Shown piece after piece: positions 6,770 through 26,001 of a DNA stretch of 64,000 nt (position 1 is its first letter; each line of letters opens with the position of its first letter). A model generated the notes under the pieces. It was not told the DNA's origin and did not search any database. It worked only from the letters and a program-made list of their open reading frames with translations. The position numbers and the translations under genes are program-made. The DNA is from Candidatus Gastranaerophilales bacterium (GTDB taxonomy: Bacteria; Cyanobacteriota; Vampirovibrionia; Gastranaerophilales; Gastranaerophilaceae). The stretch lies in NCBI GenBank assembly GCA_944324345.1, contig CALUVT010000001.1, positions 310,001 through 374,000 of the forward strand, in the 5' to 3' direction.

Positions 6770-6830
6770 AATAATTAATATACACTAAAAAAAATTTTTT
6801 TTGCACATATTTTGTGTTACATTAATATTT
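6770..6830. promoter_or_regulatory. divergent promoter region, decarboxylase / porin-like gene
   Basis: These 61 bases must hold both promoters. Minus strand: TATATT (6777-6782) lies 7 nt before the decarboxylase ATG. Plus strand: an extended -10 TGTTACATT (6815-6823) lies 7 nt before the GTG at 6831; alternatively TTGCAC (6801-6806), 16 nt and TAATAT (6823-6828). Neither gene has a Shine-Dalgarno, so both look leaderless. The plus-strand choice is uncertain. Confidence 0.4.
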
Positions 6831-8132
6831 GTGAACTATTTTTTAAGAACAGCTTTAATATATTTGCTGCTTTTATGTGCCCCGCCTGTTTTTGCGTTTG
6901 GGAAGGCTAAACGTAGTGTAAATAAGCCTGTTGAAAATCAGGAAGTTATTCATCTTGATGTAACAAAAAATGATTCTGAACAATCTGCTTCAGGACAGGC
7001 TGCAAAGACAAATGATTGGGTTCAAAAAGATATTATCAGAGACAATGTGGACACGGAGTTCTCTATTTTTGATAATTTGATTGATACGGATAAAACTGCT
7101 GATCATCCTTTTAAAATTGAGGAAGAGTCACTTTTTGGAAGAATTTATAAAAAGAAATTGGAAAGAACTTCAATACCATCTTTCCTTTTAAAAGATGAGT
7201 TGACGTTTAAATATGAAAAGGGGCCTATAGATAGAGTTCAATTTTATGGAGCTTATCAGGGGAATTTAGGGTTTGATTTCGCAGGAGCTGATTATGATAC
7301 TGATTATGGTTTCGGGTTTATGGAAGCAGGTGTTGTAGGAGATTTCAAAGACAAGAACACCGATTTTAAGTTGCAATTTAATTTTAAAAATGGTGAGAAT
7401 AGAACTTTCCTTCAGGGATTAGTTACAGATGCTTATATTATGAACACAAGGATTCCTCATCATAAAATTATTGTAGGTAATTCAAGAAACCAGGTCGGTT
7501 TTGAAGGAGGTATGGGGTCATACGTACTTCCGTTTGTCATGCGTTCACAAATATCAAGAACTTTTGGTAATACCAGAGCCTTAGGTGTAAGGGTTGTAGG
7601 GAATTATGATTTGGTTGACTATAGTTTGGCGTTGAACAGTTCAGATAGATTTTTCAAAGAATTTTTCCCTGGAGCTGAATTCACAGGGTGGCTTAACTTT
7701 AAACCTTTAGGAAAAACTGACGGGAAATATGGTACTCTCGTTTTGGGCGGAGGGTTGAATGCTGGACATAATGATACGGATTACACTGTAGGTGGTGCTT
7801 ATGCAAGTTACCGCTACAAAAAATTTATGGCAAATTTTGAATATGCAATAGCAGACGGTTATAACGGAACCTACAGAAGCACAGACAAAGCTACAGGGTT
7901 TTATTCCACTATAGCTTACAGAATTACTCAAAAACTTCATATCTTAGCAAGATATGACCAATTTGACCCTAATAGAGATATATCTGATGACTTGCGAAGA
8001 GAATATTCTGTTGGGCTAAACTATTTCATCAAAGGTCAGGCTCTTCGACTAATCTTGAATTATGTCTTTTGCGATAACGAAGATATGGAAGACAGTCACA
8101 GAATTATTCTTGGAACACAGATTGTTCTATAA
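6831..8132 (+). CDS. outer-membrane porin-like beta-barrel protein (phosphate-selective porin O/P-like)
   Basis: This secreted protein is about 433 residues long. A signal peptide is seen from the GTG at 6831: N-Y-F-L-R, a hydrophobic L-I-Y-L-L-L-L core and P-P-V-F-A-F-G. An in-frame TTG at 6801 is possible but would put a -35-like element inside the gene. A polar, acidic linker of about 100 residues precedes a barrel-like region of alternating strands rich in Y, G and F. The C-terminal part (L-H-I-L-A-R-Y-D-Q-F-D-P-N, Y-S-V-G-L-N-Y-F) resembles OprP/OprO porins. The substrate is unknown. It ends 2 nt before the convergent small gene. Confidence 0.68.
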   Translation: MNYFLRTALIYLLLLCAPPVFAFGKAKRSVNKPVENQEVIHLDVTKNDSEQSASGQAAKTNDWVQKDIIRDNVDTEFSIFDNLIDTDKTADHPFKIEEESLFGRIYKKKLERTSIPSFLLKDELTFKYEKGPIDRVQFYGAYQGNLGFDFAGADYDTDYGFGFMEAGVVGDFKDKNTDFKLQFNFKNGENRTFLQGLVTDAYIMNTRIPHHKIIVGNSRNQVGFEGGMGSYVLPFVMRSQISRTFGNTRALGVRVVGNYDLVDYSLALNSSDRFFKEFFPGAEFTGWLNFKPLGKTDGKYGTLVLGGGLNAGHNDTDYTVGGAYASYRYKKFMANFEYAIADGYNGTYRSTDKATGFYSTIAYRITQKLHILARYDQFDPNRDISDDLRREYSVGLNYFIKGQALRLILNYVFCDNEDMEDSHRIILGTQIVL

Positions 8133-9934: not shown

Positions 9935-9963
9935 ATTATATAAATTTGTTGTCCAATTGTCAA
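9935..9963 (-). promoter_or_regulatory. hisS promoter, full consensus, leaderless
   Basis: Minus strand: TTGACA (9958-9963), a 17-nt spacer, TATAAT (9935-9940), then AACTTT and the ATG at 9928. This is a perfect sigma-70 consensus with a start codon where transcription should begin. It is the clearest leaderless case in the window. Confidence 0.85.
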
Positions 9964-10197: not shown

Positions 10198-12303
10198 TTA
10201 TCTTATTGCAATTTCTCTTTTCAAATCCTCAATAAATTCAGGTTTGTACATAAACCCAAGATGTGCACCGTTACTTAATAGTAAAGTCTTTTTACCGGTA
10301 TAAATTTTAAGCTTTTTCAGTTGAGCTTGATTAACCAAATAGTCATCCAAGGAATGGTATATTTTATAATTATTGTTGTTTTGAAGGTAATCATGTAGAG
10401 ATAAAAGACTTGTATCATTTTCTAAGTCTTCAAAATTTTTATATTTTCCCCCAAGAAGATATTTTTGTGCATAGCCTTTATAATTAATATTATTGATTGT
10501 TTCGTAAATATTTGTCTTTTTATTTAATGGGGTTTTCTCAATAGTAAATACAAGATCTGATAATTTTTGATGCATTACAAAACCTGTAATTATTTTACCT
10601 TCTTCTTCGCTAAAAGGTAAAAGTTCAATATTTATGTTTTGGTTATTATTTTTCATCTCCAATAGTTGAACAATTTTGGCCGCGGTGATTGCAACACGTT
10701 CTTTTATATTATCTGTATTCTTGTTCCATTCCTCACTATTTTTGTCCACTTGTTCCATTGCGTACAAAAGTTCTATCGGAGGACACACGGATATATATTT
10801 GCTTATATTAAGAGTGTTGTTTTTGTATTCTTTATTTGCAAGAAAAAGTGTAGTTAAAGCTCCAAATGATGTTCCGAAAAGAGTTTTGCTTTTGAATTTA
10901 CAGGAATACTTATTTTCAAGTTTGTCGATAATTTTTGCTGTTGTAAGTTTCAGATAATCCGCATCTTGAGTTGGGATGCCGGGTTTGTAGGCGTCAGGCA
11001 TGCTCTTTACAAATTCCCACTGGAAGTGGCTGCCCTGAATTACAACAGAGTAGCCTGAATCGTAGAAAATTTTTGCAAGAATTTCTGAGTGTTCAGACAT
11101 TATCCCTTCTCCTATGGAGGGATAAATTATTGCTAAGGGAGAATTTTTATCCTTTTGCATTATGTACCTGAATTTGTAATTCTCTTTTTCAGGTGTAATG
11201 TTTACTGATGAAGTTTTTATTCTCTTTGCAAAACTTCTGTTCCATATAGAAAGATCGTTCCATATTGATTTGTGAATTTCAGGCATTGAAAATAGTGCAG
11301 TTCTCATCGAATCTACAATAGGATTTTGAGGGTTGTAATCAAATAAAATTACATCTGCCATAAGTTTCGAGTTATTTATTTTATAACTGTTTATAACAAG
11401 GTCATCAACGTTGTTTTTACAGTTCACTATTTCTGTTAGGGAAAGTTTATCGGTTTGGTTCTCCAAGTTTTTTTGTGCTTCTATTAAATTATTTTTGTTC
11501 TCCACAAATTCAGGGGATTTGTTATTTGGTATAAGTTCTTTTTTCGTATCTTCAAAAGCCTTTTCAAGGATTTCTTTCCTGTCGTAATTTTTGCATTTTA
11601 TGTAATTATCAATCCCATAGGCTTTTTTAGTTATGTCGTATGGGTCAGCGTATGTCGATTCAACCATTTTGATGAAGGGTTGAATGTAAGACGTTCTGTT
11701 GACGGTCAGACCTGCCTTTACCATTGCAAGAACAGGTGTTGCAACATAGGTTGTAGGGTTGAGTGATATATCAAGAATTTTTCCGGCAGCTCCTCTTGGG
11801 GTTGTTCCGGAAATTACCGGTAATACTATGTAAGAACCTGAATTACATTTACATTTTGTAAGAGCTTGTTCCATATCTTCTGTTGAGGGTTCTACCTTGA
11901 AGTACCTTTTTGCAGGATCAAACATTCCTCCAAGCCCTATGGTTGTATTTGTCAAAAATCTCACAGTTTCTGTGCCGCAAGTTTTGAAATCTTTTTGAAT
12001 AAGACTGCTTACAAGTCTTTTTGGGTATTCGACATTTTTGTAAGCATATTGAATCCTTTCCATTCCATATTCGGGCAGTATTGATGACCATAGAATATGT
12101 ACGGGTCTGATTGCATACTTATTCAAACCTAAGTTGAATGCGAAAACTTTCCTGTTAATATGCTCAAATTTGTCAGGGCCAAGATATTCGTAGGAATAAT
12201 CCGGATATTTATAGTGCTGTTTTGGAATTTCCTTTGTGAATGCACAATTAAAACTTGCTACAAAGCATAGTAAAATTAAAATCAATTTGCGATATTTTGA
12301 CAT
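10198..12303 (-). CDS. MlaA (VacJ)-like domain fused to an alpha/beta-hydrolase
   Basis: This 701-residue exported protein starts with a signal peptide (S-K-Y-R-K-L, hydrophobic core to about residue 22). A Cys at 20 lacks a good lipobox. Residues about 40-235 match MlaA/VacJ, the outer-membrane phospholipid-transport component: F-E-H-I-N-R-K-V-F-A-F-N, T-N-T-T-I-G-L-G-G-M-F-D-P, and Y-I-V-L-P-V-I-S-G-T-T-P-R-G. After a helical linker (about 240-300), residues about 370-701 look like an alpha/beta-hydrolase: nucleophile elbow G-T-S479-F-G-A, late acid D653/D654, and H681 in N-G-A-H-L-G-F. The natural guess is a lipase or transferase acting on lipids moved by the MlaA part; this is inference. 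Shine-Dalgarno GAGGAG. Confidence 0.75.
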   Translation of the reverse strand: MSKYRKLILILLCFVASFNCAFTKEIPKQHYKYPDYSYEYLGPDKFEHINRKVFAFNLGLNKYAIRPVHILWSSILPEYGMERIQYAYKNVEYPKRLVSSLIQKDFKTCGTETVRFLTNTTIGLGGMFDPAKRYFKVEPSTEDMEQALTKCKCNSGSYIVLPVISGTTPRGAAGKILDISLNPTTYVATPVLAMVKAGLTVNRTSYIQPFIKMVESTYADPYDITKKAYGIDNYIKCKNYDRKEILEKAFEDTKKELIPNNKSPEFVENKNNLIEAQKNLENQTDKLSLTEIVNCKNNVDDLVINSYKINNSKLMADVILFDYNPQNPIVDSMRTALFSMPEIHKSIWNDLSIWNRSFAKRIKTSSVNITPEKENYKFRYIMQKDKNSPLAIIYPSIGEGIMSEHSEILAKIFYDSGYSVVIQGSHFQWEFVKSMPDAYKPGIPTQDADYLKLTTAKIIDKLENKYSCKFKSKTLFGTSFGALTTLFLANKEYKNNTLNISKYISVCPPIELLYAMEQVDKNSEEWNKNTDNIKERVAITAAKIVQLLEMKNNNQNINIELLPFSEEEGKIITGFVMHQKLSDLVFTIEKTPLNKKTNIYETINNINYKGYAQKYLLGGKYKNFEDLENDTSLLSLHDYLQNNNNYKIYHSLDDYLVNQAQLKKLKIYTGKKTLLLSNGAHLGFMYKPEFIEDLKREIAIR

Positions 12304-12403
12304 TTGCTCCTCTGAACTTTTTTCAAATTTTTATATTTATATTCTTTAAAGTTAAAGCTAAAAGTTCATTGCTCGTCAGGGTAGTTTTTTGTGAGAATAA
12401 ACA

Positions 12404-12434
12404 CACAAAAAAGGCTTTCTTTAAGAAAGCCTTT
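12404..12434 (-). terminator. terminator of the 12472-12975 gene
   Basis: A 10-bp perfect stem (12410-12419 with 12425-12434) closes a five-base loop. On the minus strand it is followed by TTTTTTGTGTG. It lies 38 nt after the stop of the minus-strand gene upstream. Confidence 0.85.
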
Positions 12435-21595: not shown

Positions 21596-23932
21596 TTAAC
21601 CTTTAACCATTTTTCTTAGTACGCTTCTGTTGGTAAAGTTTATATCCTGTACAGGAGTTTCTTCCTTTTGGATTTGGTTTCTTGGTTCTACTTCGTACGT
21701 TTTAATAGGACGTTTACCTGTTAAGCGTTTCATAAAGTTGTAGTAAGATTTTTTTATACCTGTAGCACTATTTTGTTTATTTTCAAGGTCAATAAGCTGG
21801 TCTCGTGTGTGTGTTCCGATAGGAACTCCGACTGATGCCCTTGTTAACCATTCACCGAGTGTCGTATTTGTTAGTGTAATCCAGCTCATTCCAAAAAGTG
21901 ATCCGTTGTATTGACGTCTGAATGTGCTGTTGAATAAATCAATCAAAAGCGTTTGGTAGAAAAGTCTTGAACCTTCTTGTACAAATCTTTCTTTAAATTT
22001 TGTTTGAGCACCTTCAACATCGTTTCCGTTTGACTTTAACATAACCATGTTGTAATTATCTGTCATAAGGAACCATATTGTCGCCGCAAGTGCAGCTGTT
22101 TTAGCGAGATTTGATAATTCGCTGTTTGAAACATTTGACATAGTATCAACATTAAATGCCTTTAAAATGTTGTCACTGACGTAATCTCTAAAGGCTTTTT
22201 GAGAAATTTTGCCATTAGAATATTTTTCGGCTTCACGTCCGATATTTTGCACACTTTTTGCTAACGCTGAAATGTCTTCGACTTTTTTAGGAGGTTTTTT
22301 AGCTCCTTTTGAAAATATCGATTTTACCGCATCATCTACAAACTTGTATGGCATAGTACCGTATTTCCAGATAAATCTAAATGGTGCAAGGAAGAAATCT
22401 ATTGCAGGTTTGATTTTTTTCTCTTTTGCTCCCAAACTTATTGTTCCATCAGGATTTAGTGCCTTAGAAGCTATATTTTTGTATTGGTGAGCAAGTTCTG
22501 TAAACCCGTTTTCTTCCAATACGTTTGTTATGTTATCAAATTTTTCTTTAGAAATTTTAAAATCTTTTATTTCTGTTGCGTCTTTGTATATCTTTTTGAA
22601 AAATCCTGAAAAATCTTTCCAAGCGTTGTCAATTGTATTTATTTTTCGCAAACCTTTGATTGCAAAACCACCAGCAATGATTACACCTATGGCTTTTGCT
22701 ACCGTATTTAGTGATAATAACGGTTTTTGAGGAGCATCTTTATTCTCTTTGTTCCCTGAAGATTTGAATGACATATCAGGTTTAATTTCAGCTTCAGGAG
22801 CGTGGTTTCTTTCATTTTCTGCTCTGGCTTGTTCAGGGGTTAATCTTGTGATGTGTTTCCCGTTTATTACACGAGAGAAAGCTTCCGTAGTTAATGTAGT
22901 CAAAGCTGTCATCAACATTATACCCATTTTGGAATTGTTAATATATTTGTTTAAGGCCCCAAGAGTTACAAGTGTAATATAAGCATTAAACCCTATTCTT
23001 GCCATTTCCTGTTTAAATCTGATTTTTTGTTCTTCAGTAGCTGCTTTAGGATCATCATCCATCATTCTTGATAAGTTGTAAGCATCATTTGCAAGAAAGA
23101 TAGCAGGAGGAATTCCTGATACAATTCTGTTTAATGATCTTTCGTGTTTGGTATCGTAGTTTCCTGTTTTGGGATCAAACATTTTTACTGAACGTTGGAA
23201 GATAGCTGAAGTTATTTCACTTTCAGGTTTCCCTTTAAGTTTATCAGCTGTTTCAAAAAGCCCGCGTAAAGAATTAACTTGAGCATCAATTTTAGAACGT
23301 TGTCTGATTTTTTTGAACATCGGTCTGTTTAAAGTTTTAGCAGACCAATCTTTTAAAGGCTTAATTTTCCCCAACAGTTCCACAGTTCCGTTCAGGATGT
23401 CTGCCGGAAGTATCTTAAACGGGTAAACCAATCCGTCCCATATCAGTTGAGGGACTGTTTTTTTAATAAAAGTTATTTTGTCACCGTCAGTCTGAACCAT
23501 TTTCTTAGCTAATTCAGATTTTGTCAGGTGTTCTAAAAGTTCTTCACCAATTGACGTTTTAATTTCTTGCCCATCAACCTTTCTTGTGATTCCCATATAC
23601 TTTTGGGCGAATTTTTTGAACTCATTGATACTGTATGTTCCAGCCTTTTTATATCCGGGAGCCAAACGTAAAGCAACCCCGACAGCTGCCAAAGTACCAA
23701 CCATTGCCAAGGTTGGAGCAAGTGATGACGGTTTTTTCTTTTCGTCATTTTTTCCGCTAAAAGAAAGACCTTTAAAAGATAAATCCTGGTGTTTATTTTT
23801 TAAAGGTCTCTCGTTTAAATTATTTTTTAAAGACATGAACTCGGAAGAAAGAGGAACATGTTTTGGAGATAGTTCTCCTTTCGGCTTTTTTCGCTGTTTC
23901 ACTGTATCATAAGTTAATTTACCAACAAGCAT
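21596..23932 (-). CDS. large hypothetical membrane protein with N-terminal F-x-G motifs
   Basis: This 778-residue protein has no recognised family. The N-terminus holds the doubled motif D-L-S-F-K-G-L-S-F-S-G-K at about 50-61, then a hydrophobic stretch (L-A-M-V-G-T-L-A-A-V-G-V-A-L). Long basic helical segments alternate with several more hydrophobic helices, for example A-Y-I-T-L-V-T-L-G-A-L, A-I-G-V-I-I-A-G-G-F-A and A-A-L-A-A-T-I-W-F-L. The Shine-Dalgarno is GGAAGGAA. The SF-x-G pattern recurs in other orphan proteins of this window, which suggests a lineage-specific family. Function unknown. Confidence 0.65.
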   Translation of the reverse strand: MLVGKLTYDTVKQRKKPKGELSPKHVPLSSEFMSLKNNLNERPLKNKHQDLSFKGLSFSGKNDEKKKPSSLAPTLAMVGTLAAVGVALRLAPGYKKAGTYSINEFKKFAQKYMGITRKVDGQEIKTSIGEELLEHLTKSELAKKMVQTDGDKITFIKKTVPQLIWDGLVYPFKILPADILNGTVELLGKIKPLKDWSAKTLNRPMFKKIRQRSKIDAQVNSLRGLFETADKLKGKPESEITSAIFQRSVKMFDPKTGNYDTKHERSLNRIVSGIPPAIFLANDAYNLSRMMDDDPKAATEEQKIRFKQEMARIGFNAYITLVTLGALNKYINNSKMGIMLMTALTTLTTEAFSRVINGKHITRLTPEQARAENERNHAPEAEIKPDMSFKSSGNKENKDAPQKPLLSLNTVAKAIGVIIAGGFAIKGLRKINTIDNAWKDFSGFFKKIYKDATEIKDFKISKEKFDNITNVLEENGFTELAHQYKNIASKALNPDGTISLGAKEKKIKPAIDFFLAPFRFIWKYGTMPYKFVDDAVKSIFSKGAKKPPKKVEDISALAKSVQNIGREAEKYSNGKISQKAFRDYVSDNILKAFNVDTMSNVSNSELSNLAKTAALAATIWFLMTDNYNMVMLKSNGNDVEGAQTKFKERFVQEGSRLFYQTLLIDLFNSTFRRQYNGSLFGMSWITLTNTTLGEWLTRASVGVPIGTHTRDQLIDLENKQNSATGIKKSYYNFMKRLTGKRPIKTYEVEPRNQIQKEETPVQDINFTNRSVLRKMVKG

Positions 23933-25280: not shown

Positions 25281-25380
25281 AAATTAAAAACCTCACTTTT
25301 TGTTTCTGTAGATATATAGTATAATACAAAAACTTTTTTGGCAAGTAGCAAAAAATTGTGTGTTGTTGTATAATCGTTTT

Positions 25381-26001
25381 ATGAAAATTTTTGAGGGTAT
25401 GCATAAATATATTTGGGTAGAACTGATTATATGGTTTTTTATTTTATGCATTACTGTCGCTTGCGTTAGAATTCATTATTACAACAAACAGAAAAAACTT
25501 GTGACTTATCAAATTTTTATGCCGGATGTTGACGGTATTGTTGTTGGTTCGCCAGTAAAATTTATGGGTGTCCAGGTAGGATATATTGATAAGGTTAAAA
25601 TCGTCTCTAACGATGTTTATTTGAAACTTGTTATAACAGAAGATGGTATGGAATTGCCTAAGGGGTCAATTGCTACAGTTGAATTTAACGGTATGGGAGG
25701 TTCAAAATCCCTTGAGATATATCCTCCAACTCAAGAAAGTCTTGCTTCAAAGAAGATTATTGTCGTTCAAAATCCTAAAAGACTTCATGATTCATTAGGT
25801 TTGCTTAACGATATGTTTGATAAAATCGGTTCAATATCAAGCAGGTTATCATTTTTTGCAAAAGAGACAAATGGAACTGACTTGAGTAAGGGAATTCAGA
25901 CTGTTGGTATAGAAAATAACTTAAATGTTCTGAATAAATGGATAGAAGAATTTAGTGTAAAAAAAGAGCACAAAGGAGTTGGAAATTATGAACAGAGATA
26001 A
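25381..26001 (+). CDS. single-MCE-domain (MlaD-like) lipid transport protein
   Basis: This protein of about 206 residues has one N-terminal membrane helix (about residues 15-32) and one MCE domain: Y-Q-I-F-M-P-D-V-D-G-I-V-V-G-S-P-V-K-F, V-G-Y-I-D-K-V-K-I, and P-K-G-S-I-A-T-V-E-F-N-G-M-G-G. MCE proteins form hexameric rings that carry lipids between membranes, usually with an MlaE/MlaF ABC transporter. None is adjacent here, but an MlaA-like gene is in the window. The ATG at 25381 lies six bases after TATAAT (25369-25374) and lacks a Shine-Dalgarno, so it is probably leaderless. It overlaps upp by 14 nt. Confidence 0.82.
   Translation: MKIFEGMHKYIWVELIIWFFILCITVACVRIHYYNKQKKLVTYQIFMPDVDGIVVGSPVKFMGVQVGYIDKVKIVSNDVYLKLVITEDGMELPKGSIATVEFNGMGGSKSLEIYPPTQESLASKKIIVVQNPKRLHDSLGLLNDMFDKIGSISSRLSFFAKETNGTDLSKGIQTVGIENNLNVLNKWIEEFSVKKEHKGVGNYEQR

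Follow-up and report, generated by a model that had tools for sequence, protein, structure and literature searches.

We found that a gut relative of the cyanobacteria encodes an MlaA-type domain and an alpha/beta-hydrolase in one polypeptide. This protein is very probably a single-chain MlaZ-MlaY, which would take phospholipids from the outer leaflet and degrade them. The fusion gene lies at positions 10198..12303 on the minus strand of the window, by which we mean the whole stretch of 64,000 nucleotides analyzed, and the same frame is open in relatives. The frame consists of 701 codons plus stop without interruption, and the gene is single-copy in its 1.76 Mb genome. The preliminary description, which had placed both halves in one exported 701-codon chain free of frameshifts, is thus confirmed on the open frame. 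A Shine-Dalgarno-like AGAGGAG, read directly, is found 3 bases before the ATG (12307..12313, minus strand). Between the upstream gene and the fusion gene, a terminator-like hairpin with a T-run (12410..12434, minus strand) was picked up by consensus scan only; the scan found 4 such elements against 1.3 expected. Since this hairpin separates the upstream gene, the fusion gene is probably transcribed alone.

The chain begins with a predicted Sec signal peptide at residues 1–24 (12232..12303, minus strand), as judged from the sequence and from comparison with homologues. Residues 17–20 read SFNC, which is not a lipobox. A lipobox is missing in 58 of 59 homologues, and a lipobox-like motif occurs in the remaining one. 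The poor lipobox at C20 and the non-lipoprotein form had been pointed out before, and the homologues agree with both. We therefore assign this half to the MlaA/VacJ domain family, outside the lipoprotein form of that family, and consider it probably free of a lipid anchor. A non-lipoprotein MlaA fits a remark in PMC10665443 that Terrabacteria lack the Lol system.

The MlaA (MlaZ-like) domain spans residues 44–229 (11617..12174, minus strand) by Pfam and by Foldseek, close to the range of about 40–235 first proposed. It matched Pfam MlaA (PF04333) with an E-value of 1.4e-41 and 142.7 bits (gathering cut-off 25). Foldseek aligned the MlaA half with solved MlaA structures at TM-scores of about 0.8 (0.83 to 5nuo), and MlaA chains of the PDB also matched the N-terminal half by sequence. 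The conserved residues of this half are kept among the homologues. Residues 259–307 (11383..11529, minus strand) form a variable linker that is probably disordered; pLDDT is below 50 in the full-length model, and conservation is the lowest after that of the signal peptide.

Residues 308–701 (10201..11382, minus strand) form an MlaY-like alpha/beta-hydrolase domain with a helical cap, as assigned from AlphaFold2, PDB matches and HHalign. The AlphaFold2 model of residues 300–701, built on a 52-sequence alignment, reached pLDDT 90 and pTM 0.90. Hundreds of alpha/beta-hydrolase structures in the PDB matched it, with Z reaching 19, so structure prediction, which had been proposed as a check, bore out the fold. 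Among solved structures, those closest in fold are esterases, peptidases and thioesterases of varied kinds. When the PDB was searched by sequence with a profile of the hydrolase half, no chain matched at E <0.1. All Pfam matches on the C-terminal half were below threshold (Abhydrolase_1, 4.6e-4).

The predicted nucleophile is S479 in the motif G-T-S-F-G (10867..10869, minus strand), which is conserved in 59/59 sequences. The predicted acid D654 (10342..10344, minus strand) and the predicted catalytic H681 (10261..10263, minus strand) are conserved in 58/58 and 57/57 sequences, respectively, where covered. In the model, S479 comes directly after the nucleophile-elbow strand and before a helix, D653/D654 are located behind the next-to-last strand, and H681 behind the final one. 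The modeled strand placement of these residues is that which the alpha/beta-hydrolase fold requires. The cap, about 130 residues long, is inserted between nucleophile and acid. The triad S479, D653/D654 and H681, as earlier named, is thus supported by conservation and by strand topology; its arrangement was judged on topology only. D653 (10345..10347, minus strand) is an alternative acid, present in 53/59 fusions and Asp in all four MlaY proteins compared. Either of the two neighboring residues may serve as the acid, since the Fusobacterium vincentii protein has Asp-Glu, with Glu at the position of D654, where the others have Asp-Asp.

Outside Cyanobacteriota, sampling was through plasmid and chromid records only, and in these records tblastn with the hydrolase half gave only four matches outside the order, three in P. 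aeruginosa and one in F. vincentii. In P. aeruginosa, a VacJ/MlaA gene lies directly downstream of the match, and in F. vincentii the match overlaps its downstream MlaA neighbor. Both neighbors were confirmed by Pfam. A search with Pseudomonas MlaY added two Skermanella records with mlaY directly upstream of mlaZ. The coupling to an MlaA-family partner is therefore covalent in the fusion and by gene adjacency in four other genomes. A passage of PMC11977310 gives the active site of MlaY as S187, D388 and H415. These positions align with S479, D654 and H681 of the fusion, and the Pseudomonas protein has S, D and H there. From the paired VacJ neighbor and the matching active-site residue numbers, we identify the Pseudomonas pair as PA3238-PA3239 (MlaY and MlaZ).

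Compared with MlaY by HHalign, the fusion hydrolase aligned over 321 columns, cap included, at 99.7% and E 2.7e-27. Pairwise BLASTP gave 24% identity (E 3e-24), and identity to MlaY is low throughout at 23–24%. As far as homology can tell, the hydrolase half belongs with MlaY and is not a generic hydrolase. The generic Abhydrolase label was rejected given the MlaY match, the sub-threshold Pfam scores and the lack of a PDB sequence match at E <0.1. PMC11977310 calls MlaY PldA-homologous and an integral outer-membrane protein. In Pfam, the MlaY sequences examined matched alpha/beta-hydrolases weakly and the PldA family not at all; they appear to disagree on PldA homology, and that description should be taken with caution.

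Three of these records deserve separate comment. In plasmid pPALO11 of P. aeruginosa PaLo11 (L143:5518-7163), mlaY is broken into two frames with no gene annotated, and mlaZ is intact. The F. vincentii SB055 record with the overlapping mlaY-mlaZ pair (L142:5785-7825) was deposited as a 2.1 Mb plasmid and is evidently a chromosome. On the Skermanella megaplasmids (L144:3902-9266 and L145:3893-9212), a TamB-domain gene directly follows mlaY and mlaZ, which links phospholipid disposal with a presumed anterograde lipid transporter.

The fusion is present in 57 of 146 related genomes, and MlaA was found in exactly the same 57. Among 386 sampled Cyanobacteriota genomes, 92 carry the hydrolase, and these same 92 are the ones with MlaA; neither a standalone MlaA nor a standalone hydrolase was found in any of the 386. 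The fusion frames are about 625–830 aa long, except in G343, where a contig end cuts the gene. Apart from that gene, MlaA occurs in the sampled order only as the fusion. The fusion was also located in named assemblies, at 41 loci; where these carry a label, it is nearly always Gastranaerophilales or Melainabacteria, so the source organism is a non-photosynthetic gut relative of cyanobacteria. A search of public genomes for the same fusion, another check proposed at the outset, thus found it open in dozens of independent genomes at 42–82% identity, and this excludes chance or assembly error. About half of the sampled order is without the gene, where it is evidently dispensable. A record titled "Fusobacterium sp. 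CAG:439" (L035) carries the fusion at 72% identity together with the gene order of the window, and is probably a mislabeled Gastranaerophilales genome.

In the MlaA-domain tree, the MlaA domains of the fusions form one clade with support 100/100, consistent with one fusion event. The clade sits on a long stem, and holding fusion and MlaZ together was neither supported nor rejected (p-AU 0.507). The domain order in the fusion is MlaZ-MlaY, the reverse of the mlaY-mlaZ operons. A hydrolase profile run against IMG/VR contigs for a viral origin gave no match.

We examined other envelope genes in the same genomes. MlaC (PF05494) matched in no sampled genome of the order; the only matches, in 6 of 146 genomes, were all from other orders of the class. 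The MlaC that the canonical Mla pathway requires was therefore not found in this order. MlaD is present in all of its sampled genomes, and the source genome has two copies of MlaE, one beside an ABC ATPase. A short MlaD-type MCE protein (213 aa) is encoded at 25360-26001 on the plus strand of the window, about 13 kb from the fusion and beside a uracil phosphoribosyltransferase gene; a long MlaD (~455 aa) also occurs in the order. LpxC is near-universal in the order, with or without the fusion, so an LPS leaflet is likely present. Loss of LPS was therefore ruled out as the cause of the patchy distribution. No PldA (PF02253) match was obtained in any of the 146 genomes, which likewise rules out a swap with PldA.

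No neighbor of the fusion in the window is conserved around it beyond close relatives, as seen when an operon partner was sought. A porin-like, beta-rich, exported protein of 443 aa with no Pfam match is encoded at 6801-8132 on the plus strand, two genes away from the fusion on the far side of hisS. Its homologue in the relatives L041 and L043 directly follows the fusion and is convergent with it. E. coli MlaA binds porins, and this protein is therefore a candidate partner of the fusion. The window also holds a 778-aa frame at 21596-23932 on the minus strand with no Pfam match at E 0.01 and, a short way upstream of hisS (9935-9963, minus strand), a promoter that fits the sigma-70 consensus perfectly (TTGACA-17-TATAAT).

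MlaYZ was proposed in P. aeruginosa by Guest et al. (2023, PNAS), as reported in passages of PMC11131202, PMC11977310, PMC12569750 and PMC10925693. In the model described by such passages in papers citing that work, MlaZ would extract glycerophospholipids that are out of place and pass them to MlaY for degradation; the passages also state that an E. coli pldA mutant is rescued by MlaY and MlaZ together. MlaY is the periplasmic enzyme of the pair; the same passages term it a phospholipase or lipase and hold that MlaYZ serves species lacking PldA. The lack of detected PldA in the order matches this last view. A literature search, with the full text of Guest et al. outside its reach, found no report of an MlaA-hydrolase fusion.

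The fusion and the P. aeruginosa pair share both components, the triad, homology over the whole hydrolase with its cap, the pairing with the MlaA family, and the association with missing PldA. They differ in that P. aeruginosa has two proteins from adjacent genes and, in addition, a canonical Mla pathway that includes MlaC. In F. vincentii and Skermanella the same two families stand side by side, but as separate genes, and their MlaZ proteins have lipoprotein-like signal sequences. No MlaC or MlaD match was obtained across the 2.1 Mb F. vincentii record, so that a MlaY/MlaZ pair can exist without the retrograde pathway. This record resembles Gastranaerophilales in the undetected MlaC and differs in the undetected MlaD; its pair is possibly a stand-alone degradation pathway. 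E. coli MlaA shares the fold and the Pfam family of the N-terminal half; in contrast, it is a lipoprotein, works with MlaC and MlaFEDB, and has no enzyme domain. PldA (OMPLA) probably has the same role, the destruction of phospholipids misplaced in the outer leaflet, but it is an unrelated beta-barrel, whereas the fusion hydrolase has the alpha/beta-hydrolase fold.

When proteins that other organisms make separately occur naturally fused, this is a classic sign of joint action. The MlaA channel and the hydrolase are fused here and encoded by separate neighboring genes in Pseudomonas and Fusobacterium, which is strong evidence that they act together. In the mechanism we propose, Sec would export the fusion, which would carry no lipid anchor. 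Its N-terminal MlaA-type channel, set in the outer membrane, would extract glycerophospholipids misplaced in the LPS-containing outer leaflet and hand them on, toward the periplasm, to the C-terminal hydrolase tethered to it. The hydrolase would cleave acyl esters with its predicted S479-D654-H681 triad. The products, namely fatty acids together with lysolipids or deacylated lipids, would then leave for re-use, and no MlaC carrier would be needed. We infer the outer-membrane location, the substrate, the catalysis and the direct hand-over from the assembled evidence, and the phospholipase activity of the hydrolase is likewise presumed. Speaking against this mechanism are the MlaA-domain tree, in which the fusion does not group specifically with MlaZ, the reversed domain order, the low identity to MlaY and the lack of the gene in about half of the sampled order.

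The preliminary description suggested that the enzyme cleaves lipids taken from the outer leaflet, like a built-in outer-membrane phospholipase. Its first part is well supported, since the hydrolase half is related to MlaY, which is partnered by the MlaA paralogue MlaZ. The PldA-like picture is not quite right, because cleavage likely takes place at the periplasmic face after extraction.

Alternatively, the MlaA half might deliver lipids from elsewhere, for example over an MlaD bridge, and the enzyme might be a remodeling acyltransferase or lysophospholipase acting on periplasmic lipids rather than a disposal enzyme. The hydrolase fold alone fixes neither the substrate nor hydrolysis versus acyl transfer, and the presence of MlaD across the order and of MlaE in the source genome would suit such a role. 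However, the MlaY and MlaZ genetics reported in the citing passages indicate removal and degradation, and among the window's neighbors nothing, mlaDEF included, is kept beside the fusion outside close relatives. We regard remodeling as improbable. It is still less probable, indeed very unlikely, that the C-terminal half acts as an esterase or thioesterase on a non-phospholipid (e.g. lipoprotein, LPS or peptidoglycan esters) with MlaA as a mere outer-membrane anchor. The varied nearest folds and the lack of a close solved relative by sequence leave room for this reading, but the homology to MlaY, called a phospholipase or lipase in the citing passages, is full-length with the cap, and a mere anchor would not need the conserved residues that the MlaA half keeps. 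A functionless fusion by chance, assembly artefact or translational read-through, to which only the patchy distribution lends itself, is already refuted by conservation: the frame is open in dozens of independent genomes down to 42% identity, the triad is invariant and the clade is monophyletic at 100/100.

The proposed degradation of outer-leaflet phospholipids by a single-chain MlaZ-MlaY is a variant of a mechanism already known in two-protein form as MlaYZ. What is surprising is that the two parts form a single chain in reversed order, that this occurs in such a lineage, that the lipobox is missing and that neither MlaC nor PldA was found. According to a survey of 1083 genomes, MlaABC is "totally absent in diderm Terrabacteria" (PMC10665443). 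Gastranaerophilales are an exception to this statement, and the fusion shows that, contrary to this view, Terrabacteria are not devoid of MlaA. An MlaA-type protein occurs here in a lineage where MlaC was not found, probably without a lipid anchor. The chances are about even that the fusion is a self-sufficient, anchor-free unit with direct channeling, which would stand in for both PldA and the retrograde transport that depends on MlaC, in a lineage of Terrabacteria believed to be MlaA-less. The F. vincentii pair suggests that degradation can stand alone as a system for outer-membrane asymmetry. For the proposed hand-over from MlaZ to MlaY, the fusion offers a single-chain test object with fixed stoichiometry.
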